Shown here: piece by piece, positions 2,379 through 12,999 of the stretch | How the letters are laid out: each line of letters begins with the position of its first letter | How positions within the stretch are numbered: the stretch's first letter is position 1 | IMG/VR virus record: IMGVR_UViG_3300025645_000551 | Span: 1-21,219 of that record | DNA length: 21,219 bases | Strand: one strand, 5' to 3' | DNA from: a virus | Notes under the pieces: generated by a model | The model's input: only the letters and a program-made list of their open reading frames with translations | Told to the model about the DNA's origin: nothing | Databases searched by the model: none | Position numbers and translations under genes: made by a program

Positions 2379-3575
2379 ATGGTCACTCTCGTAAACAGAG
2401 CCAAAGTCGCCACTGCCACGACTGGCACTGGCACGATTACCCTTGGCACTGCCGAGAGTGGCTATCAATCCTTTGCTGATGCTGGTGTGGTTGACACTGA
2501 TGTGGTTCGCTACGTCATTGAAGATGGCACTGACTGGGAGATCGGCACAGGCACCTACACAACCTCTGGGACCACCCTGTCACGGACTGTCAGCGAGAGT
2601 TCCAATGCTGACGCTGCGTTGAACCTGAGTGGCTCTGCGGTGGTGTATGTCTCGGCTACTGCTGAGGATATTCCGCCTGTTCTTGAACTGTATGCTGAGA
2701 ACCCGTCTAGCCCTACTGCGCCTAGTGCTACTGGCACTAATGCTGTGGCTATTGGTGATGGTGCAACAGCAAGTAATACAAGTTCAACAGCCGCAGGCGG
2801 TTTTGCAACGGCCAGCGGTGAAGCATCCTTCGCTGCGGGAAGTGATGCATTTGCAAGTGGCCGGAGAAGCACGGCAATTTCTCGCTCCTACGCCTCTGGT
2901 ACAGACTCCTTTGCAGCAGCCATCGCCAACAACAGCTCTAGCTACGGCGCTACTCACGCAAACGCAGTCGTTATTGGGCCGCAGGCAAAAAGCACAAACA
3001 CCAGCGCAGTAGCACTTGGAGCGCAAGCGCAAGCGGGTCAATACGCCTGTGCAATCGGTCAGGGCGCTCTTGCAGAAGGGCGCGGTAGTTTTGCTTTAGG
3101 TTCCGGCGCTAGGGCTGTACAACGTAATAAGTTTGCCTTCTCAGGGCCGTGGTTTAACACGGTTGGAGATAGACAAAGTGGCCTCTTAACTCTTGGTAGA
3201 GATACGTCAGACGCAACCCCAACAAGCATCACTTCGAGTGGTGGCGCTCCTGCTACAGATAACCAAGTCATCCTGCCAAACAACTCTGCCTACAGCTTCA
3301 GTGGTACAATCATCGCCAGACAACAAGCGTCTGCTGGCAGTGAATACGCAAGTTGGGAAATCAAAGGTGCGTTGTTGCGTGACGGCTCTGCCGCTACCAC
3401 CGTGCTGGGCAACGGGATCAAGAACAAGTTGTTTGCCTCTGCTGGTGCCTCTGCCTGGGACATTGCATTGACTGCTGACACTACCAACGGTGGCTTGGCT
3501 ATTACTGTCACGGGTGCAGCCACTACGAACATTCGGTGGGTAGCCACTGTGAACACAAGCGAGGTTACTTACTGA
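2379..3575 (+). CDS. tail fibre with YadA/trimeric-adhesin-like head repeats (fibre A)
   Basis: 398 residues. Residues 1-95 form a Thr/Gly-rich N-terminal module ([18 protein letters not shown]...) of a type common at fibre bases. Residues about 102-245 carry repeats of about 14-16 residues of the form (N/S)AVAIGxxAxA, FALGSGARA and similar, as in the left-handed beta-roll heads of trimeric autotransporter adhesins. Residues about 248-398 form a C-terminal module ([20 protein letters not shown] ... [17 protein letters not shown]) that recurs in the next gene. This is likely a trimeric receptor-binding fibre of the virion. The Shine-Dalgarno is weak and the stop overlaps the next start. Codon use is richer in A/T-ending codons than in the neck genes. 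The receptor is unknown. Confidence 0.82.
2682..2756 (+). repeat. shared fibre anchor 1, copy in fibre A
   Basis: 75 bases encoding 25 residues beginning [14 protein letters not shown]. It matches 3689-3763 in fibre B at 71 of 75 positions by my alignment, with an identical protein. It marks the junction between each fibre's own N-terminal module and the adhesin repeats. Confidence 0.85.
2874..2954 (+). repeat. shared fibre anchor 2, copy in fibre A
   Basis: 81 bases encoding [20 protein letters not shown] plus seven residues. It matches 4052-4132 in fibre B with 25 of 27 residues identical but many synonymous changes, so it is older than anchor 1 or under stronger protein-level constraint. 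Confidence 0.8.
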
Positions 3576-4753
3576 TGGGTAAGATCGAACTAGATCACAC
3601 AGGCGCTGGCTCTGGTGTTACGCTGTCGAGCGATGGCACTGACCTACTGCTCAATGGCACAGCTATTGGCGGCGGCGGTGGCACTGCCCTTGAGCTGTAT
3701 GCTGAGAACCCGTCTAGCCCTACTGCTCCTTCTGCTACTGGCACTAATGCTGTGGCTATTGGTACGAACTCAGGCGCAAGCGGGATTGAGTCTGTTTCCA
3801 TTGGTGGTAATAGCAATGTATCTGGCGATTACTCCATCGCACTTGGCAATAGTAATGACGTAACAGCTTCGTTTGCTGGTGCAATAGGATTAGGTGCTGA
3901 TGCCACAGGTAATTACGCTTTTGCACTAGGCGCGGCTTCATTTGCGTCTGGCTTACAATCGGTTGCCATTGGCCGAGATACTGACGCAACAAGTTCTGGT
4001 GCTTTGGCTATTGGGTATCAGGCACAGGCCAGAACTGGATCAAACGCAACAGCCATTTCACGTTCTTACGCCTCTGGCACCGACAGCTTCGCAGCAGCTA
4101 TCGCCAACAACACTTCTACCTATGGCGCTACTGGTTCTAACTCTGTGGCGATTGGAAACCAAGGCAAAGCTACCGCATTTGGTGCTGTTAGTCTTGGAAG
4201 AAACACTCAGGCAACAGCTAATTACTCATTAGCTTCCGGCTTATTTACTGTTGCGTCTGCTTCCTATGGTGTGGCTCTTGGCTACGAAGCAACAACTTAT
4301 ACGCAAACATCAATAGCGTTTTCGGCGGGTAGTTTCAGTGGCATTGCAGGGCAGCACCAAGGGCGTATATTTGCTTTCCGTCAACGCACCACAGATGCCA
4401 CACCTAAAGTGTTGGTTACTGATGGTGGTTCAAGCGGAAGCACGAATGACCAAATTATCCTCCCCAACAATTCTGCCTACGCCTTCCACGGCACTATCGT
4501 AGCCCGCCAGCAAGCCTCTACAGGCACAGCATGTGCAGCATGGAAGATCGAAGGGTTGATCCGTAGGGAAGGTTCGGCAGGCACGACTGTGCTGGTCAAC
4601 AGCGCCACGACTGTCCTCGACAACACACCTGCTTGGGGCATGGCTCTCAGCGCAGACACGACCAATGGTGGCCTCAAGATCGAAGCCACTGGCGCAGCAG
4701 CTACAAATATTGCTTGGAGCGCCACAATCAACACGTCCGAAGTGACGTACTAA
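3575..4753 (+). CDS. tail fibre with YadA/trimeric-adhesin-like head repeats (fibre B)
   Basis: 392 residues from the ATG at 3575-3577, which overlaps the stop of fibre A (TGATG). A longer frame from 3536 is rejected because it would sit inside the C-terminal module of fibre A. Residues 1-35 are a different N-terminal module ([20 protein letters not shown], then a Gly run), another common marine phage fibre base. From about residue 40 there are adhesin-like repeats (NAVAIG, ESVSIGG, YSIALGNS, AGAIGLGADA, GALAIGYQAQA). Residues about 245-392 are the C-terminal module shared with fibre A. The two genes share head and tip modules but differ in base, so they may attach differently or form a composite fibre. 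It is probably a trimeric receptor-binding protein. Confidence 0.82.
   Translation: MGKIELDHTGAGSGVTLSSDGTDLLLNGTAIGGGGGTALELYAENPSSPTAPSATGTNAVAIGTNSGASGIESVSIGGNSNVSGDYSIALGNSNDVTASFAGAIGLGADATGNYAFALGAASFASGLQSVAIGRDTDATSSGALAIGYQAQARTGSNATAISRSYASGTDSFAAAIANNTSTYGATGSNSVAIGNQGKATAFGAVSLGRNTQATANYSLASGLFTVASASYGVALGYEATTYTQTSIAFSAGSFSGIAGQHQGRIFAFRQRTTDATPKVLVTDGGSSGSTNDQIILPNNSAYAFHGTIVARQQASTGTACAAWKIEGLIRREGSAGTTVLVNSATTVLDNTPAWGMALSADTTNGGLKIEATGAAATNIAWSATINTSEVTY
3689..3763 (+). repeat. shared fibre anchor 1, copy in fibre B
   Basis: Partner of 2682-2756. The four mismatches are at the third codon position of the second residue and in the TAPSA-encoding codons. The protein is unchanged. 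Confidence 0.85.
4052..4132 (+). repeat. shared fibre anchor 2, copy in fibre B
   Basis: Partner of 2874-2954. The two residue differences are both Ser/Thr exchanges near the end of the block. Confidence 0.8.
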
Positions 4754-4760
4754 AAGGAGG
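4754..4760 (+). promoter_or_regulatory. very strong Shine-Dalgarno for the gene at 4766
   Basis: AAGGAGG at 4754-4760, five bases before ATG 4766. It lies in the 12-base gap after fibre B. It is among the best ribosome binding sites in the window, suggesting high expression of the small protein that follows. Confidence 0.8.
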
Positions 4761-4765
4761 CCAAC

Positions 4766-5065
4766 ATGGCTATTGAACTGAACCTTGAGACTTCCCAGTA
4801 TGGTACCCCTTTTGCTGGTGCCTACTTTCGCATTGCCACCGCAGCTATCAGCCGTATGCGTGAGGGTGGACCCAAGTTCACCGTGATGATTGATGTCGCA
4901 GGATACGCCACTGGCACACCTGATGATGACACACGGGAAGTAGACTTCCGCCGCTACCACGCTGACTTGGCTGAGGTTGAAGCAACCGCTGGTGATAACT
5001 TTCTCGACAAGTGCTACGCTTGGGTGATGACGCAGGAAGACATGAATGGGAGCGTTGCGGTATAA
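4766..5065 (+). CDS. small conserved phage protein of unknown function
   Basis: 99 residues, with a strong AAGGAGG upstream. It contains LNLETSQYGTPFAGAYFRIA, a central KFTVMIDVAGYATGTPDDDT segment followed by REVDFRRYHADLAEVEATAG, and a C-terminus of DKCYAWVMTQEDM. I recognise this small family from marine phage fibre clusters, where it lies between fibre genes, but not its function. It looks like a compact alpha/beta protein without signal peptide or membrane helix. The stop codon overlaps the next start (TAATG at 5063-5067). Context suggests a virion or tail-associated accessory, possibly linked to the fibre genes on either side. Confidence 0.72.
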   Translation: MAIELNLETSQYGTPFAGAYFRIATAAISRMREGGPKFTVMIDVAGYATGTPDDDTREVDFRRYHADLAEVEATAGDNFLDKCYAWVMTQEDMNGSVAV

Positions 5066-5424
5066 TGAGTATTGTCATCGACTACACCAAGGGTTTCTTT
5101 GAGCCTTCGCCTGCTGGTGAAACAGTCGGTGACATCACCTCAAGCACCCTCGACCTGTCCACTGGCAACGTGTTCTCTGATGCACCTGCTACAAGCCCAA
5201 CGTACGTCTTCAGCAATCCGCCTGCTTCTGGCACTGCTTACGGCTTCACGCTCAAGGTAACACCCTCTGCGACGGTGACTGTGACTTGGCCTGCCTCGGT
5301 TGACTGGGCTGGTGGAACGGCCCCTGACGCCCCTGCTAGTGGCGCTACGAATGTCTACTCGTTCTACACGCAGGATGGTGGGACAACGTATTATGGCTTC
5401 CTCGCTGGTGGAGCGATGGCATGA
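5065..5424 (+). CDS. small tail-fibre-module-like protein
   Basis: 119 residues from ATG 5065, which overlaps the preceding TAA. An upstream in-frame start at 5011 would overlap the previous gene by 55 bases and is less likely. The protein reads MSIVIDYTKGFFEPSPAGET, then a beta-rich segment with YVFSNPPASGTAYGFTLKVT and WPASVDWAGGTAPDAPASGA. It ends YSFYTQDGGTTYYGFLAGGA. The WPxSVxWAGGTAP ... FFTxDGGTTYYGF block is, from memory, a small C-terminal beta domain on many marine phage tail fibres. Here it is almost the whole protein, so this could be a stand-alone tip or a remnant of a longer fibre. It overlaps the next gene by four bases. Confidence 0.72.
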   Translation: MSIVIDYTKGFFEPSPAGETVGDITSSTLDLSTGNVFSDAPATSPTYVFSNPPASGTAYGFTLKVTPSATVTVTWPASVDWAGGTAPDAPASGATNVYSFYTQDGGTTYYGFLAGGAMA

Positions 5425-7055
5425 CGATTGCTAGACTGATGCAACAGGCGGCTGCTGGCTCTGCTGGTGCTGGACCTGAGCCTTCCGGCTGGATCGACCC
5501 TGATTTGGCTAATGCGAGTTACGATAGTGTCAGCTTCAGTGTGGCGGGGCAGGACGGTGTTCCAATGGGGGTATTTTTCAAGCCAGATGGAACGAAGCTA
5601 TATGTCACGGGCGAGGGTTCCGATAGCGTTTATGAGTATGATGCAAGCACCGCTTGGGATGTATCTTCGGCATCGTATGTGCAATCTTTTAGTGTCAGTG
5701 GGCAAGACGCTAGCCCTCAAGGTTTGTTCTTTCACCCCGATGGGACGACGATGTATGTTGTCGGCATTACAAACGACAGCATTTACGAATATGCACTCAG
5801 CACAGCTTGGGACATAAGCACGGCTAGTCTCTCAAACACCCTTGATATTTCGACTGAGGACACTGCTCCAAGAGGGTTGTTTTTTAGTGCTGATGGCAGT
5901 CGTCTGTATGTCGCTGGCGATGCTGGGAATGACATAAAACAATACAGTCTCAGCACTGCTTGGGATACTAGCACAGCGTCTTACGTACAAAACTTTAGCG
6001 TTTCTTCACAAGACGCAAACATCCAAGACGTATTTTTGAGCCCTGATGGGACAAAGATGTTTGTTGTCGGGCTGCAAAACGACTCTGTATATCAGTATTC
6101 TTTGTCAACAGCCTTTGACTTGTCTACTGCGAGTTATGACAGCGTTAGCTTTAGTGTGGCTTCACAAGACGGAGCGCCAACGGCCCTTACGTTTAAGTCA
6201 GACGGTTCTAAAATGTATGCGTTAGGGATAGCCACCGACACCATCTACCAATACTCCACAGCCGCAGCTGCTCCCTCAGAATGGACCGACCCTGATCTGG
6301 CTAATGCGAGTTATGATAGTGTTAGCTTTAGTGTGGCGGGGGAAGAGACTGCTCCAAACGCTATGTTCTTTGGTTCTGTTGGAACTAAACTTTACGTTAC
6401 GGGGTCATCTGGTGATGATGTAAATGAATATGATTTAAGCTCTGCTTGGGATGTTTCGTCTGCTTCGTATGTGCAGAATTTTAGTGTATCTACTCAAGAT
6501 ACAGCCCCAACGGGTTTATTTTTTAAGGATGACGGCTCCAAGATGTATGTTGTTGGTGCATCCGGTGACGCTGTTAACGAATATGATTTGAGTTCCGCTT
6601 GGGACATATCTACTGCATCTTACAGTCAAAACTTTAGTGTATCTGCTCAGGACACAATCCCAAGAGATTTGTTTTTTAAGCCCGATGGACTGGAAATGTA
6701 TATTGTTGGTCTTTCTGGGGTTGACATAAATCAATATACATTAAGCGCCGCTTGGGACATATCTACTGCATCTTACAGTCAAAACTTTAGCGTTTCTGCA
6801 CAGGAGGCAACACCAACTTCTTTGTTTTTATCTCCGAATGGAGACAAGTTATTTTTGTTGGGTATTAGTGGTGATGATGTAAATGAGTATAACCTAAGCA
6901 CGGCTTGGGACATTTCATCTGCATCCTATGTTCAGAATTTTAGTGTATCTGCGCAAGAAACAGCCCCAACAGGTATATTTTTCAAATCGGACGGCTCCAA
7001 GATGTATATCGTTGGCTCTGGCTCAGACACCATCTACCAATACTCAACCGCATAG
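5421..7055 (+). CDS. adhesin-like protein of ten propeller-type repeats in a 5+5 arrangement
   Basis: 544 residues, start ATG 5421 overlapping the previous stop, with GGTGGAG at 5407-5413. Residues 1-23 are a short MTIARLMQQAAAG leader of a kind seen on other marine phage fibre proteins. The rest is ten repeats of about 51 residues with consensus P-x-G-L-F-F-K-P-D-G-(T/S)-K-M-Y-V-V-G ... D-x-(V/I)-x-(E/Q)-Y-x-L-S-(T/S)-A-W-D-(I/V)-S-(T/S)-A-S-Y-x-Q-x-F-S-V-S-x-Q-(D/E). The pattern resembles YVTN/NHL-like beta-propeller blades. The repeats split into two groups of five, each opened by W(I/T)DPDLANASYDSVSFSVAG (residues 24 and 288) and closed by DTIYQYST. No catalytic motif is visible. A receptor-binding or virion surface role is inferred from its fibre neighbours and the chaperone just downstream. 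Confidence 0.78.
   Translation: MTIARLMQQAAAGSAGAGPEPSGWIDPDLANASYDSVSFSVAGQDGVPMGVFFKPDGTKLYVTGEGSDSVYEYDASTAWDVSSASYVQSFSVSGQDASPQGLFFHPDGTTMYVVGITNDSIYEYALSTAWDISTASLSNTLDISTEDTAPRGLFFSADGSRLYVAGDAGNDIKQYSLSTAWDTSTASYVQNFSVSSQDANIQDVFLSPDGTKMFVVGLQNDSVYQYSLSTAFDLSTASYDSVSFSVASQDGAPTALTFKSDGSKMYALGIATDTIYQYSTAAAAPSEWTDPDLANASYDSVSFSVAGEETAPNAMFFGSVGTKLYVTGSSGDDVNEYDLSSAWDVSSASYVQNFSVSTQDTAPTGLFFKDDGSKMYVVGASGDAVNEYDLSSAWDISTASYSQNFSVSAQDTIPRDLFFKPDGLEMYIVGLSGVDINQYTLSAAWDISTASYSQNFSVSAQEATPTSLFLSPNGDKLFLLGISGDDVNEYNLSTAWDISSASYVQNFSVSAQETAPTGIFFKSDGSKMYIVGSGSDTIYQYSTA
5490..6260 (+). repeat. propeller module 1 (repeats 1-5)
   Basis: Runs from the WIDPDLANAS opening to the first DTIYQYST closing, containing five repeats of about 51 residues. 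The corresponding start in module 2 is offset by 792 bases. The opening about 60 bases are strongly conserved between the modules, while the interior has diverged. Confidence 0.75.
6282..7052 (+). repeat. propeller module 2 (repeats 6-10)
   Basis: Runs from WTDPDLANAS to the second DTIYQYSTA. It is noticeably more AT-rich than module 1: hand counts give 22 G/C in 60 bases at 6421-6480 and 24 in 60 at 6781-6840. It therefore may not be a simple recent copy of module 1. Confidence 0.75.
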
Positions 7056-7063: not shown

Positions 7064-7537
7064 ATGCTACTCGTAAAAACATCAAACGGACAGGTAGAGC
7101 AATTCCCTTACACGCTCGGAGACCTTCGCCGTAACAACCCGCAGACCAGCTTCCCGAAGAAGATCGGTGATGCAATCCTCGCCAGTTACGGCATTTACCA
7201 TGTGATGCCTGAGGCCCAACCTGAGTACGATAATCTTGTACAAAGTCTTGTGCGTGACCCTGAACCTCACAACAACGAGACAGCGGTAAACGAGGACACA
7301 GGCGAGACTTACAAGACTGGTCGCTGGGTGATTGGCTACACTGTTGAGAGCAAGCCGCAAGATCAGGCAGAAGATGCTGTCCGCAACAAGCGTGACCGCC
7401 TACTGCAACAAACCGACTGGATGGCCCTAAGCGACAACACGATGACACCAGCTTGGGCATCGTATCGCCAATCGCTTCGTGATATAACTGCGCAAGAAGG
7501 CTTCCCATATAACGTGATCTGGCCCACTAAACCGTAG
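7064..7537 (+). CDS. phage tail (fibre) assembly chaperone-like protein
   Basis: 157 residues with a clear AGGAG five bases before the ATG. The C-terminal third reads RNKRDRLLQQTDWMALSDNT, then PAWASYRQSLRDITAQ and GFPYNVIWPTKP. This is the signature I know from the phage tail assembly chaperone family (Phage_tail_APC, Pfam PF16778): xKRDxLLxxTDW ... WxxYRQxLRDI ... FPxxVxWP. The N-terminal part (FPYTLGDLRRNNPQTSFPKK ... YGIYHV) matches a module often placed before it. Such proteins help fold or trimerise the fibre encoded next to them. Here it follows the propeller protein and two fibres and precedes the repeat protein, so any of these may be the client. It should be cytoplasmic and absent from the mature virion. 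Confidence 0.85.
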   Translation: MLLVKTSNGQVEQFPYTLGDLRRNNPQTSFPKKIGDAILASYGIYHVMPEAQPEYDNLVQSLVRDPEPHNNETAVNEDTGETYKTGRWVIGYTVESKPQDQAEDAVRNKRDRLLQQTDWMALSDNTMTPAWASYRQSLRDITAQEGFPYNVIWPTKP

Positions 7538-7546: not shown

Positions 7547-9751
7547 ATGCTAGGATTTTCCCCTCTCGCCTCCGCTCCGTTAGGTGATGATGGGGTTGAG
7601 GCCAGTGTAAGCGTTAGCGTCCCAATCACCGGTCTCTCGGCTACTGGGCAGGTGGGGTCTGTCGCTGCCACGGGTACTGAAAATGTGGACGTCGCCCTTA
7701 CAGGCGTAACGGCCACCGGCCAAGTCGGTGCGGTAACGGTCACGGCAGATGTAGTCGCCCTCTTGACCGGCGTAACGGCCACCGGAAGCGTAGGCTCTGT
7801 CGTTGTTGCAGCTGACGCCGTTGCCGTTCTTACCGGAACCACTGCCACGGGCGGGGTTGGCACTGTTCAGGTTGCGGTAGACGTTGTTGCCGAGACCGTC
7901 GGAGCAGCTGCCACCGGCCAAGTCGGCGTTGTGGATGCGGACCCCGACGCCGCTGTTACCGGCGTCGCAGGCACCGGCCAAGTTGGCACCGTCACGGCGG
8001 AAACTGCGGGCAATGTTACAGTGGGTGTCACGGGTGCGGCGGCCATCGGGCAATCCGGTGCAGCCTCTGTCGCAGCAAACGCCGCTGTTGCCCTCACGGC
8101 CGCGGCAGGTGTGGGCTTTGCCGGTGCGGTTGTAGCCATTGCAGCGGCAGATGCCCCCCTTACCGGCGTCGTCGCGACGGGCCAAGTAGGTGCCGTGCTT
8201 GCACGCGGGTCCAGCGTTACGCCGCTTACCGGAGTAAGCGCTAATGGCGCGGTGGGTATTGCTTCGGCGATCGCAGATGTCTCAATCAACGCGATTGGTT
8301 CTTCTTCCGCGGGCCAAATTGGCACCGTTGTTATCGAAGCTAATGCCGCTGTAGGCCTTACGGGTGTATCTGCGGGTGGCGAGGTTGGCATAGCCGACGC
8401 AGACCCTGACGCAAACGTCACAGGCGTCGCAGCCTCCGGCCAAGTCGGCACTCTTGCGGTTGCCGCTGACGCAACGGCAGACGCCGTCGGCGTCAGCGCA
8501 AACGGTCAGGCGGGCACCGTTGTTATCGAAGCTAATGCAACTACAGTTGCCACAGGTGTCTCAGCTACGGGTCAAGTCGGCGATTTAATTATCCCCAACG
8601 TCGATGTGTCCGTCACAGGCGTGACTGCAAACGGCCAGATCGGCGAACTCCTATTCCCAGACGTAGATGTCCGGATCACGGGCGTCGCTGCCTCCGGCCA
8701 AGTTGGCACTCTTGCTGTCGTAGCTGATGCCAACGCCGTCGCGGTGGGCGTCGCAGCCTCCGGCCAAGTTGGCACCGTTGCTGTCGTAGCGGCCGCGACT
8801 GCCGCTGCCACGGGCGTTGAGGCCACGGGCGAAGTTGGCATAGCCGACGCAGACCCCGACGCTGCTGTCACGGGCGTCGCTGCCACAGGTGGTGTCGGCA
8901 CTCTTGCTGTCGTAGCTGACGCTAACGATGTCGTCACAGGCGTCGCAGCCATAGGCGAGGTTGGCATAGCCGATGCAGACCCCGACGCTTCTGTCACAGG
9001 CGTCACCGCCACAGGTGGTGTCGGTAGTCTTGCTGTCGCAGCTGATGCCAACGATGTCGTCACAGGCGTCGCAGCCATAGGCGAAGTGGGCACTCTTGCT
9101 GTCGTAGCTGATGCCAACGCCGTCATCACAGGCGTTGCGGCACCGGGTGAAGCTGGGGTAGTGGTGGCACTTCCGTCTATCGAGGCGCCGGTATCAGGAC
9201 TCTCTGCCACAGGAGGCACAGGGTCCGTTGACCTTACGGGCACAGCGAACACAACACTGGTCGGCGTGGCATCCACGGGGCAGGTCAACAATGTCGTAGC
9301 CTTTGCTTCTGTCATCGCGGTCGCTACAGGCTCCGAGTCCGCGGGTAGTGTTGGTGCAGTAACCGCAACGGGCGCAGCGGTCGGTTTAACGACGGGCGTG
9401 GAAGCCACAGGCCAGCCGGGTGACGTCACTGTCACCGGCACCGCGACAATTATTCCGATCGGCGTTTCAGCCACGGGCGAAGCGGGCACGGCGCAGGGCC
9501 TCCCCTCCATCGAGGTTCCCGTCACGGGCGTCTCTACCACTGGAGCGGTCGGCACTGCGCAGGCTGCTGCTGGCGCAATCGTCCTTATCGCCGGCGTCTC
9601 TGCCGCCGGCCGCACAGGCCAAGTTATCATGTGGGGGCCGATAAAGCCCGACCCCGGCAATGTATGGACGGATGTTGAACCCTCTGATATAACAGACTGG
9701 ACCGGGGTGAACCCCGACGCCGGAACCATCTGGACTCCAGTCGCAGCGTAA
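7547..9751 (+). CDS. large repetitive virion/tail fibre-like protein (about 31 short repeats)
   Basis: 734 residues. A short leader (MLGFSPLASAPLGDDG) is followed by about 31 repeats of 20-24 residues with consensus (V/L)-T-G-V-(A/S/T)-A-(T/S)-G-(Q/E/G)-V-G-(T/S/A)-(L/V)-x-V-x-A-(D/N)-A-x-x. The protein is almost purely Ala, Gly, Val and Thr with no Cys. The C-terminal 45 residues differ, with three Trp-containing short units (VWTDVEPSD, DWTGVNPDAG, IWTPVAA) typical of the ends of such marine phage proteins. The repeat length and alternating hydrophobic pattern fit an extended beta-solenoid or beta-rich fibre. Repeats 5, 12, 19 and 21 carry a DADPDA loop. The function is probably structural, an adhesive or stalk protein, inferred from position between the fibre chaperone and another fibre. 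Near-identical DNA at 8867-9124 indicates recent expansion. Confidence 0.78.
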   Translation: MLGFSPLASAPLGDDGVEASVSVSVPITGLSATGQVGSVAATGTENVDVALTGVTATGQVGAVTVTADVVALLTGVTATGSVGSVVVAADAVAVLTGTTATGGVGTVQVAVDVVAETVGAAATGQVGVVDADPDAAVTGVAGTGQVGTVTAETAGNVTVGVTGAAAIGQSGAASVAANAAVALTAAAGVGFAGAVVAIAAADAPLTGVVATGQVGAVLARGSSVTPLTGVSANGAVGIASAIADVSINAIGSSSAGQIGTVVIEANAAVGLTGVSAGGEVGIADADPDANVTGVAASGQVGTLAVAADATADAVGVSANGQAGTVVIEANATTVATGVSATGQVGDLIIPNVDVSVTGVTANGQIGELLFPDVDVRITGVAASGQVGTLAVVADANAVAVGVAASGQVGTVAVVAAATAAATGVEATGEVGIADADPDAAVTGVAATGGVGTLAVVADANDVVTGVAAIGEVGIADADPDASVTGVTATGGVGSLAVAADANDVVTGVAAIGEVGTLAVVADANAVITGVAAPGEAGVVVALPSIEAPVSGLSATGGTGSVDLTGTANTTLVGVASTGQVNNVVAFASVIAVATGSESAGSVGAVTATGAAVGLTTGVEATGQPGDVTVTGTATIIPIGVSATGEAGTAQGLPSIEVPVTGVSTTGAVGTAQAAAGAIVLIAGVSAAGRTGQVIMWGPIKPDPGNVWTDVEPSDITDWTGVNPDAGTIWTPVAA
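8867..9124 (+). repeat. near-identical tandem duplication inside the repeat protein
   Basis: Two consecutive higher-order units, 8867-8992 (42 codons) and 8993-9124 (44 codons), each made of a VTGVxATGGVG repeat plus a VTGVAAIGEVG repeat. Much of the DNA is identical, for example a stretch around 8927-8960 against 9053-9086. They are the least diverged copies in the gene. Confidence 0.8.
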
Positions 9752-11139: not shown

Positions 11140-12999
11140 ATGACTCTCACCCCACTCAGGTTTAAGCCCGGCATCAATCGCGAGATCACTCCGTTCGCGA
11201 ACGAGGGCGGCTGGGTGGACGGCGACAAGATCCGCTTCCGCGAAGCGTTTCCTGAAACCATCGGCGGGTGGTCGAGTTTTAATAGCCAGACGTTCCTCGG
11301 TACGGCGCGCTCCTTGCACCCTTGGGTGACGCTCACAGGCAAACAACTGCTGAGCCTCGGGACAAACCTGAAATACTACATCGCCGAGGGCGGGCAGCCC
11401 CTAGATATCACGCCAATCCGGCTGACGACCGCTGCAGGTGCGACGACCTTTGCCGCCACGACGGGGTCCACGACGATCGTGGTGTCCCACACGCTGCACG
11501 GGGCACGTCTTAACGCATTTATCACGTTCTCAGATGCAGCTAGTCTTGGTGGCGATATTACCGCCGATATCCTGAACGCCGAGCACCAGATCACACGTGT
11601 TATAGATACGAACTCGTATGAGATCGACGTGGGCGTTGCAGCCACGGCCTCCGACACAGGCGACGGCGGCACCCTGACGGTTGCGGCGTACCAGATCAAC
11701 CCGGGCCTCGACACAGTGACGTTCGGTACCGGCTGGGGGACTGGTCCATGGTCGCGCGGCACATGGGGTTCGAGCTCAGACACCTCGGTGACGACGGGGC
11801 AGCTACGCATCTGGTCGCAGGATAACTTCGGCGAGAACTTAATCTTCTGCGCGCGGGACGGTGGTATCTTTTACTGGGACGCCTCGCTGGGCACTTCGTC
11901 CCGTGGCGTGAACATCGTGGACCTCGAGGGGTCACAAGCTGCGCCTACGGTCGCGCGACGCGTTCTCGTCTCCGAACGCGACCGGCACACTATTGCCTTC
12001 GGGTGCGATCCCGAGTTCGACCCCGGAGTGCAGGACCCGCTGGTCATCCGCTTCTCGGACCAAGAGAACGTGCTGGAGTGGCGTGCGCGGGAAACGACGA
12101 CAGCGGGCGAGCTGCGCATCGGCACAGGCAGTGGCATCGTCACGGCCGTGCAGACCAAGCAGCAGATCCTCGTGCTGACTGATATCTCTGCCCACACCAT
12201 GCAGTTTATCGGCGCGCCGTTTACCTTTGGCTTGAGCGAAGTATCGACCAACGTGTCGATTGCCGGGCCAAACGCTGCGGTAGCTGCTGGCGACAATGTG
12301 TTCTGGATGGGCAAGGGCGAGTTCTACGCCTACGCTGGCCAAGTGCAGCAGATGGACTGCCTCGTCAAAGACTACGTATTCTCCGACATCAACCTCGCGC
12401 AGATCGGCAAAGTGGCAGCAGGCCACAACGCTGCGTTCTCTGAAATCTGGTGGTTCTACCCTTCAGCAGCAAGCACCGAAAACGACCGGTATGTGGTCTA
12501 CAACTACGCCCAGAACGTCTGGTACTACGGCACCATGGCGCGCACAGCGTGGATTGATCGCGGCACCTACGCGTATCCTCTGGCTACATGCCCGACAGGC
12601 TGCATCTTCTACCATGAGTTCGGCCTCAATGATGGCAGTATTAACCCCCCGATCGCCATCAACGCATTTATAGAGTCGAGTGCTGTCGACATCGCCGAGG
12701 GCGATCAGTTCATGTTTGCCAGCCGGTTATTGCCAGATATCACTTTCCGTAACTCGACGGGTACGCCACTGGCGACGTTCACGCTCAAGGCCAAGAACTT
12801 CCCGGGCGGAGCGCTTTTCGGAGATGATGCTACGACAACTGTACGCGCGGCCACGGTGCCAGTAGAGCAGTTCACGACGCAGACGTTTGTCCGCATCCGC
12901 GGGCGGGCTATGGCGTTGCGGGTTGAGTCGGACCAAACAAATACGGCTTGGCGCCTCGGCGTGCCGCGACTCGACATCCGCACCGATGGTCGGAGGTAG
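11140..12999 (+). CDS. tail nozzle / stabilisation-like protein
   Basis: 619 residues. The N-terminus has LRFKPGINREITPFANEGGW, then VDGDKIRFREAFPETIGGWS. I associate this pattern with podoviral tail proteins related in position and size to P22 gp10 or T7 gp12, the beta-propeller-like nozzle closing the tail stub. Residues about 110-180 (SHTLHGARLNAFITFSDA ... NAEHQITRVIDTNSYEIDV) look like a small inserted beta domain found in many phage proteins. From about 190 the pattern is propeller-like (RLWSQDNFGENLIFCARDGG, FYWDASLG, FGCDPEFDPGVQDPLVIRFS, VLTDISAHTMQF, FWMGKGEFYAYAGQVQQMDC, EIWWFYPSA). The gene has a weak GGAG before ATG 11140. The nozzle role is inferred from family resemblance and from the adaptor genes upstream. 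Confidence 0.72.
   Translation: MTLTPLRFKPGINREITPFANEGGWVDGDKIRFREAFPETIGGWSSFNSQTFLGTARSLHPWVTLTGKQLLSLGTNLKYYIAEGGQPLDITPIRLTTAAGATTFAATTGSTTIVVSHTLHGARLNAFITFSDAASLGGDITADILNAEHQITRVIDTNSYEIDVGVAATASDTGDGGTLTVAAYQINPGLDTVTFGTGWGTGPWSRGTWGSSSDTSVTTGQLRIWSQDNFGENLIFCARDGGIFYWDASLGTSSRGVNIVDLEGSQAAPTVARRVLVSERDRHTIAFGCDPEFDPGVQDPLVIRFSDQENVLEWRARETTTAGELRIGTGSGIVTAVQTKQQILVLTDISAHTMQFIGAPFTFGLSEVSTNVSIAGPNAAVAAGDNVFWMGKGEFYAYAGQVQQMDCLVKDYVFSDINLAQIGKVAAGHNAAFSEIWWFYPSAASTENDRYVVYNYAQNVWYYGTMARTAWIDRGTYAYPLATCPTGCIFYHEFGLNDGSINPPIAINAFIESSAVDIAEGDQFMFASRLLPDITFRNSTGTPLATFTLKAKNFPGGALFGDDATTTVRAATVPVEQFTTQTFVRIRGRAMALRVESDQTNTAWRLGVPRLDIRTDGRR
12992..12997 (+). promoter_or_regulatory. Shine-Dalgarno for the gene at 13003
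   Basis: GGAGGT at 12992-12997, overlapping the preceding stop region, five bases before ATG 13003. Confidence 0.7.

Follow-up and report, generated by a model that had tools for sequence, protein, structure and literature searches.

How the ten near-equal repeats of a 544-residue viral protein are arranged, and what such a protein does, is the question raised by one gene in IMG/VR virus record IMGVR_UViG_3300025645_000551, of which positions 1 to 21,219 (21,219 nucleotides; hereafter the window) were analyzed (Table 1). The original prediction had read the repeats as two tandem five-bladed propellers, each closed by pairing of an opening with a closing strand, and had named a single large ring or an open solenoid as alternatives.

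Table 1. Features of the propeller locus and of the adjoining genes, in window positions
Feature	Position	Strand	Basis
Predicted double five-bladed propeller gene, probable receptor-binding tail protein	5421..7055	+	544-aa open ORF, repeats, predicted structure
N-terminal 23 residues (MTIARLMQQAAAGSAG...)	5421..5489	+	Low-confidence helix, pLDDT <50 for residues 1-22
Ring 1, residues 24-281: opening D strand, four full blades, final A-B-C strands	5490..6263	+	AF2 model of residues 24-287
Ring 1 closing strand DTIYQYST, DNA GACACCATCTACCAATACTC, probable recombination seam	6237..6260	+	20 nt shared by ring ends
Inter-ring linker AAAPSE	6264..6281	+	pLDDT dip (66) at residues 281-290 between two confident domains
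Ring 2, residues 288-544	6282..7052	+	62% identity to ring 1; own propeller match
Ring 2 closing strand DTIYQYST, seam copy 2	7026..7049	+	Same shared DNA as ring 1 closing strand
Tail-fibre assembly chaperone	7064..7537	+	PF16778 Phage_tail_APC E 6e-19; PHROG tail fibre assembly E 9e-18
Tail-fibre domain protein, overlaps propeller start (ATGA)	5056..5424	+	PHROG tail fiber protein E 2e-9; homologs annotated tail fiber

Repeat layout and predicted fold

The repeat cores start at residues 43, 94, 145, 196 and 248 and again at 307, 358, 409, 460 and 511, with spacings of 51, 51, 51 and 52 residues in the first block, 59 over the module boundary and 51 throughout the second. Core-to-core identity averaged 46%, whereas shuffling the sequence gave 8% and at most 11% over 1000 trials, which bears out the proposed ten repeats of about 51 residues in two blocks of five. 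Both blocks also open and close as claimed, with W(I/T)DPDLANASYDSVSFSVAG at residues 24-43 and 288-307 (window 5490-5549 and 6282-6341) and with DTIYQYST at residues 273-280 and 536-543. The opening strand was less distinctive than had been supposed, however, given that its SYDSVSFSVA half recurs within block 1, ahead of core 5, and only the W.DPDLAN half is unique to module starts. When the cores of the two modules were paired, matching each core of module 1 with the same-numbered core of module 2 gave the most alike arrangement (rank 1 of 120 permutations), and among ten-core relatives the unshifted pairing was the best of the five cyclic shifts in 35 of 57. Because same-position pairing beats all others, it was the whole five-blade block that was duplicated, as one unit.

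Sequence repeats alone do not distinguish a ring from an open, unclosed solenoid, and the ten consecutive blades of equal length would also suit one large ten-bladed ring, as would the relative L027, in which the module boundary falls at normal spacing. AlphaFold2 was run on the full-length protein with 34 aligned sequences and on residues 24-287 with 105 aligned modules. Modelled alone, as the original prediction had proposed, residues 24-287 gave a very confident single propeller domain (model m21492e26b04d; pLDDT 96.9, pTM 0.93, five models alike). Its 20 strands were predicted in the order D-(ABCD)x4-ABC, that is, the opening strand, then four blades of four strands each and a last blade of three. 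The full-length model (pLDDT 91.4, pTM 0.60) had two confident parts with a dip between them; residues 30-287 aligned to propeller 4zlr (Z 18.1) and residues 293-544 to 1q7f (Z 17.1), and double-propeller proteins (LRP6, megalin) aligned across both halves.

To count blades, VIA-align 2 on a single module was preferred over ranking by Foldseek E-value, which was led by large WD40 propellers with low TM and high rmsd. The best match of module 1 was 3qqz (Z 23.1, 2.7 Å over 228 residues, model 5-257), followed by the glutaminyl cyclases 3nol, 2iwa and 2faw (Z 19-21); these top matches are small propellers of 234-254 aa. Glutaminyl cyclases of the plant type have five blades. Six-bladed NHL and designed Pizza6 propellers scored from Z 19 downward, with the best NHL domains tying with 2faw. 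The phi11 and 80alpha receptor-binding protein chains were not among the 50 structural matches listed, which has no bearing either way. The 20 modelled strands, together with five cores per module in relatives, point to five four-stranded blades per domain, and the strand order and the end-to-end alignment with 3qqz and the three cyclases point to closure by a strand from the opposite end of the domain. The opening strand (WxDPDLANASYDSVSFSVAG) would thereby supply the fourth strand of blade 5, which ends at DTIYQYST.

Relatives and the number of blades

In Pfam, the protein matched Lactonase (PF10282; E 2e-14, 54 versus a cut-off of 21.7 bits) and SGL (E 2e-11), while PF21311 (Phage_RBD_prop) fell below its curated cut-off (21.1 versus 23.7 bits) and covered residues 157-215 only. 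The closest solved sequence was the YVTN/lactonase propeller 1l0q (E 5e-17), from an archaeal surface-layer protein with the same 'PDG..(L/M)YV' blade pattern. Lactonase and YncE models are seven-bladed according to Pfam and NCBIfam, whereas the predicted ring of the window protein has five blades, which sets it apart from PF10282. Weak matches to PFO_beta_C, LPD24, ComC_SSD, Phage_connector, PPV_E2_N and others lay on the repeated blade motif and were dismissed as chance or composition.

Relatives were present in hundreds of viral contigs (420 stretches), in 19 phage records, including those of Lentibacter phage ICBM2 and Roseobacter phages CRP-2, -9, -13 and -738, and at 46 loci in bacterial and archaeal genomes; no near DNA match to the window was present in the phage collection. 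In this sample, which is partly query-dependent (a ten-core protein served for the first scan, and searches with single modules led to the same multiples-of-five rule), 96 of the 109 non-redundant complete ORFs carried 5 (40), 10 (49), 15 (6) or 30 (1) cores. Of the four ORFs counted as having nine cores, three had a long gap that contained a degenerate tenth core. Modules were spaced by 5, 17-26, 60-80, 89-100 or ~140 residues, and the five-core rule held for every linker type. Some relatives had modules split by unrelated domains of 60-140 aa, and others were stand-alone modules. In 42 relatives, both flanks of the propeller cassette matched the tail-fibre domain that is unbroken in the window (5056-5424); the first half of this domain ended at residue 69 in 31 and the second resumed at residue 75 in 30. 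Insertion into a single loop needs neighbouring module ends, as a closed ring has.

Taken with the models, these patterns make it highly likely that the window protein consists of two separate five-bladed propellers in tandem, joined by a short linker. A single ten-bladed ring is scarcely credible: module 1 folds confidently by itself, each half of the full-length model has its own propeller match, proteins with one five-core module exist, including a sibling allele of the window gene (L139, described below), and entire domains are inserted between the fives in some relatives. An open solenoid is just as hard to sustain given the compact, end-to-end match of module 1 to 3qqz, the pTM of its model, blade numbers held at multiples of five and the placement of modules within a loop of a different domain, which requires adjacent module ends. 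Both alternatives are effectively excluded, and the tandem five-bladed rings of the original prediction are retained.

Exceptions to five were L035 (6+5), L085 (six cores in a row), truncated copies in L013 and L009, and a three-core ORF in L084. Given the single-blade changes in L035 and L085, closure at five is strong but not absolute, unless these two are assembly errors in repetitive DNA. L035 (3729-6851) is otherwise near-identical to phage L008 (5+5); if it does not reflect misassembly, this one-blade difference offers a natural test of tolerance for a six-bladed ring. Two fifteen-core proteins, L044 (4881-7379) and L057 (3277-5682), have the linker pattern 5,1,5,4, which we considered as a breach of the rule; it reads better as a ring-in-ring insertion and suggests that a five-bladed ring was inserted after blade 1 of another ring. 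Likewise, a short-linker class was considered to have a ring 2 without a closing strand, but every member in which the N-terminus is present has an additional WDL.YAYYDP segment, which fits an insertion of ring 1 into the D strand of ring 2.

The module also occurred in cellular proteins. A 2951-aa protein of Reichenbachiella (Bacteroidota; L126, 3165-12017) had thirty cores as six fives, with ~140-aa DUF5018-like spacers and a T9SS sorting signal, and SAR11 (Pelagibacteraceae) loci L095-L123 (e.g., L097, 7914-10013) encoded ~710-aa proteins with one five-core module. In L097, the member scanned, the module was followed by an autotransporter beta-barrel (PF03797, E 6.5e-28), with the propeller as passenger. 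The same blade family was found in large proteins of Patescibacteria MAGs (L084, L085) and archaeal MAGs (L086, L089, L094), which could be surface proteins or stem from viral contigs.

Ring exchange, variable face and tail-fibre context

We found other alleles of the propeller gene on contigs closely related to the window. Contig L005 (IMG/VR 3300025806_002647) carries a diverged ten-blade allele: its DNA was identical to the window over nearly all of 3148-5485 (~100% from 3748 to about 5485, with local dips at 3628-3747), a span that takes in the gene's first 22 codons. Identity dropped to ~55-60% over all ten blades, was 83-90% where the two rings meet (6231-6350, the inter-ring seam) and returned to ~90% in the chaperone gene. 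Contig L139 (3300025645_004078), whose upstream DNA was 100% alike over 3813-5432, has a propeller gene of a single five-blade ring (284 aa, ending DTIYQYSTD-stop), and this ring is module 1 of the L005 allele (~98% DNA identity). The L139 junction lies inside CGACACCATCTACCAATACTC, a 21-nt closing-strand repeat (DTIYQYS) found at both L005 ring ends, of which 20 nt recur without change at the two ring ends of the window. The window allele was carried by L001 and L002 and the other allele by L005 and L139; since four contigs from four metagenomes back the two alleles, a chimera is an unlikely source of the swap, with some slight chance left that the single ring of L139 is a metagenome assembly error (collapse). 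Flanks of at least 90% identity around diverged blades were also seen in L004 versus L014 and L020, L038 versus L048 and L049, and L012 versus L017. Swapping or diversification between close phages, as expected of a receptor-binding tail protein, was thus observed in L005, L139 and other lineages.

These alleles suggest that each ring is an interchangeable unit with which the phage grips host cells. Judged from three related contigs, the ring-edge seams are probable crossover sites and would be a cause of the exchange, not its by-product: recombination in the conserved ring-edge DNA could replace, add or remove whole rings, and specificity would change without breaking a ring. There is perhaps an even chance that five-bladed rings are a recombination currency shared ring by ring among aquatic phages, with seams at opening and closing strands conserved in nucleotide sequence permitting swap, gain or loss of an entire receptor-binding ring in one event and rings always left closed. 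The N-terminal 23 residues were 100% alike in the window, L005 and L139 despite the differing blades, and similar ...QAAAG peptides begin other stand-alone relatives. This constant peptide probably attaches the protein to the tail, where it would dock on the fibre complex aided by the chaperone from the adjacent gene.

Variation was concentrated in two of the four loop classes. Over 105 modules, with variability placed on the strands of the model, loop entropy was 2.29 bits for D-A and B-C loops versus 1.01 bits for A-B and C-D loops (p ~ 1e-14), and the window and L005 shared 29% identity in the former and 67% in the latter. By convention, D-A and B-C loops form the top face of a propeller. 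The conserved A-B and C-D loops would accordingly lie on one face and the variable loops on the opposite one, which probably touches glycans or proteins of the host surface; variability on one face fits a ligand-binding face, and it equally fits any binding partner.

The neighbouring genes are those of a tail-fibre region. The chaperone that had been proposed downstream of the propeller gene was confirmed as a tail assembly chaperone (Table 1), and a chaperone-like ORF followed the propeller ORF in at least 62 of 109 viral ORFs by a crude count that misses the window's own. Being encoded with tail-fibre genes and an assembly chaperone is likewise what a receptor-binding tail protein would be expected to show. 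Upstream, 2379-3575 and 3569-4753 encode two YadA-head-repeat (PF05658) proteins with similar C-terminal halves, apparently a duplicated fibre gene. Downstream, 7547-9751 encodes a 734-aa protein that consists of short TGV.A.GQVG repeats and matched nothing in Pfam or PHROG. The product of 11140-12999 resembles stabilisation/virion proteins of Phage DSL-LC04, Pelagibacter phage HTVC023P and Roseobacter phage CRP-901, which we take to be short-tailed phages. Judging by the sources of the relatives, the window probably derives from a short-tailed marine phage.

We infer that the propeller protein, probably located in the virion tail of a short-tailed phage, is likely to bind a receptor, and that this receptor-binding tail protein is probably exchangeable and built of whole rings. 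It is improbable, although conceivable, that the rings instead serve the tail as structure or decoration, or bind non-host targets such as particles or mucus-like polymers. The seven-bladed propeller in the SU10 tail nozzle provides a structural precedent (PMC9509320), and relatives are found among bacterial and archaeal MAGs as well as secreted bacterial proteins; nevertheless, cassette swaps between near-identical phages and variability on one face would be unusual for a structural part, and the neighbouring gene encodes a tail-fibre chaperone. It is very improbable that the rings are an enzyme, a lactonase or glycan-degrading propeller trimming the host surface. Phage tail enzymes are common, and Lactonase followed by SGL gave the best Pfam E-values. 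These matches track the general blade pattern, however, while the residues closest to the variable face vary greatly from allele to allele, the D-A and B-C loops hold no conserved polar set beyond the blade consensus, and the fold matches are spread over many unrelated propellers. A receptor-binding role therefore remains the preferred reading.

Known propellers and what the rings may mean for aquatic phages

Five-bladed propellers are already known in phage receptor-binding proteins. Gp45 of phi11 and gp61 of 80alpha, both Staphylococcus phages, have a five-bladed propeller 'platform' of Pfam family PF21311, in which an N-terminal strand completes blade 5 and closes the ring (PMC4901313, PMC7048315). 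The top DALI match of the phi11 propeller is glutaminyl cyclase 3nol, and P2 of PRD1 is a distorted five-bladed propeller in a receptor-binding protein (PMC4901313). The rarity that the original prediction had attached to five blades thus holds in that the number is uncommon, but phi11 and 80alpha provide precedents. The modelled window protein is like them in its five blades and N-terminal-strand closure, and like the phi11 propeller in its 3nol match. In contrast, the staphylococcal proteins have one ring per chain with a stem and tower and belong to Gram-positive siphophages, whereas the window protein has two near-homologous tandem rings of repetitive blades and no stem or tower in its 544-aa chain. 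It resembles the PF21311 platform in working and stays outside PF21311 membership by score.

Highly repetitive propellers amplified from similar blades have also been described, including a 15-blade protein predicted as two rings of 7 + 8, in a text that mentions viruses but not phage (PMC9218822). In those propellers single blades were amplified and ring size varies, whereas in the window family a whole five-blade ring seems to be duplicated, swapped or lost. ICBM2 gp51 and CRP-9 gp42 belong to the same module family with 5 and 15 cores, i.e., one and three rings; both are annotated as hypothetical proteins. The best structure match in the viral library was a predicted model from Lentibacter phage ICBM2 (A0A3G2YRG7; TM 0.95, 0.8 Å), and the ICBM2 propeller gene has a tail assembly chaperone gene on either side.

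Searches of the literature turned up no tandem propellers in marine phages, no propellers in roseophages and none in SAR11 autotransporters, and tandem rings, ring-wise gain or loss and insertion at a constant fibre-domain loop were not found in the literature searched. The diverged ten-blade allele of L005 and the one-ring allele of L139, on contigs almost identical to the window upstream, are new.

Most receptor-binding proteins of environmental phages lack annotation, and this family is filed as hypothetical in the isolates checked (ICBM2, CRP-9); with the five-blade signature, such proteins can be recognised in many viral contigs. With one-ring and two-ring alleles occurring naturally at one locus, it becomes testable what a second ring adds, whether avidity or a further specificity, and whether recombination is directed towards ring edges. 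Finally, the presence of the module in SAR11 autotransporters and T9SS-secreted proteins hints at a traffic of adhesion modules between phages and aquatic bacteria.
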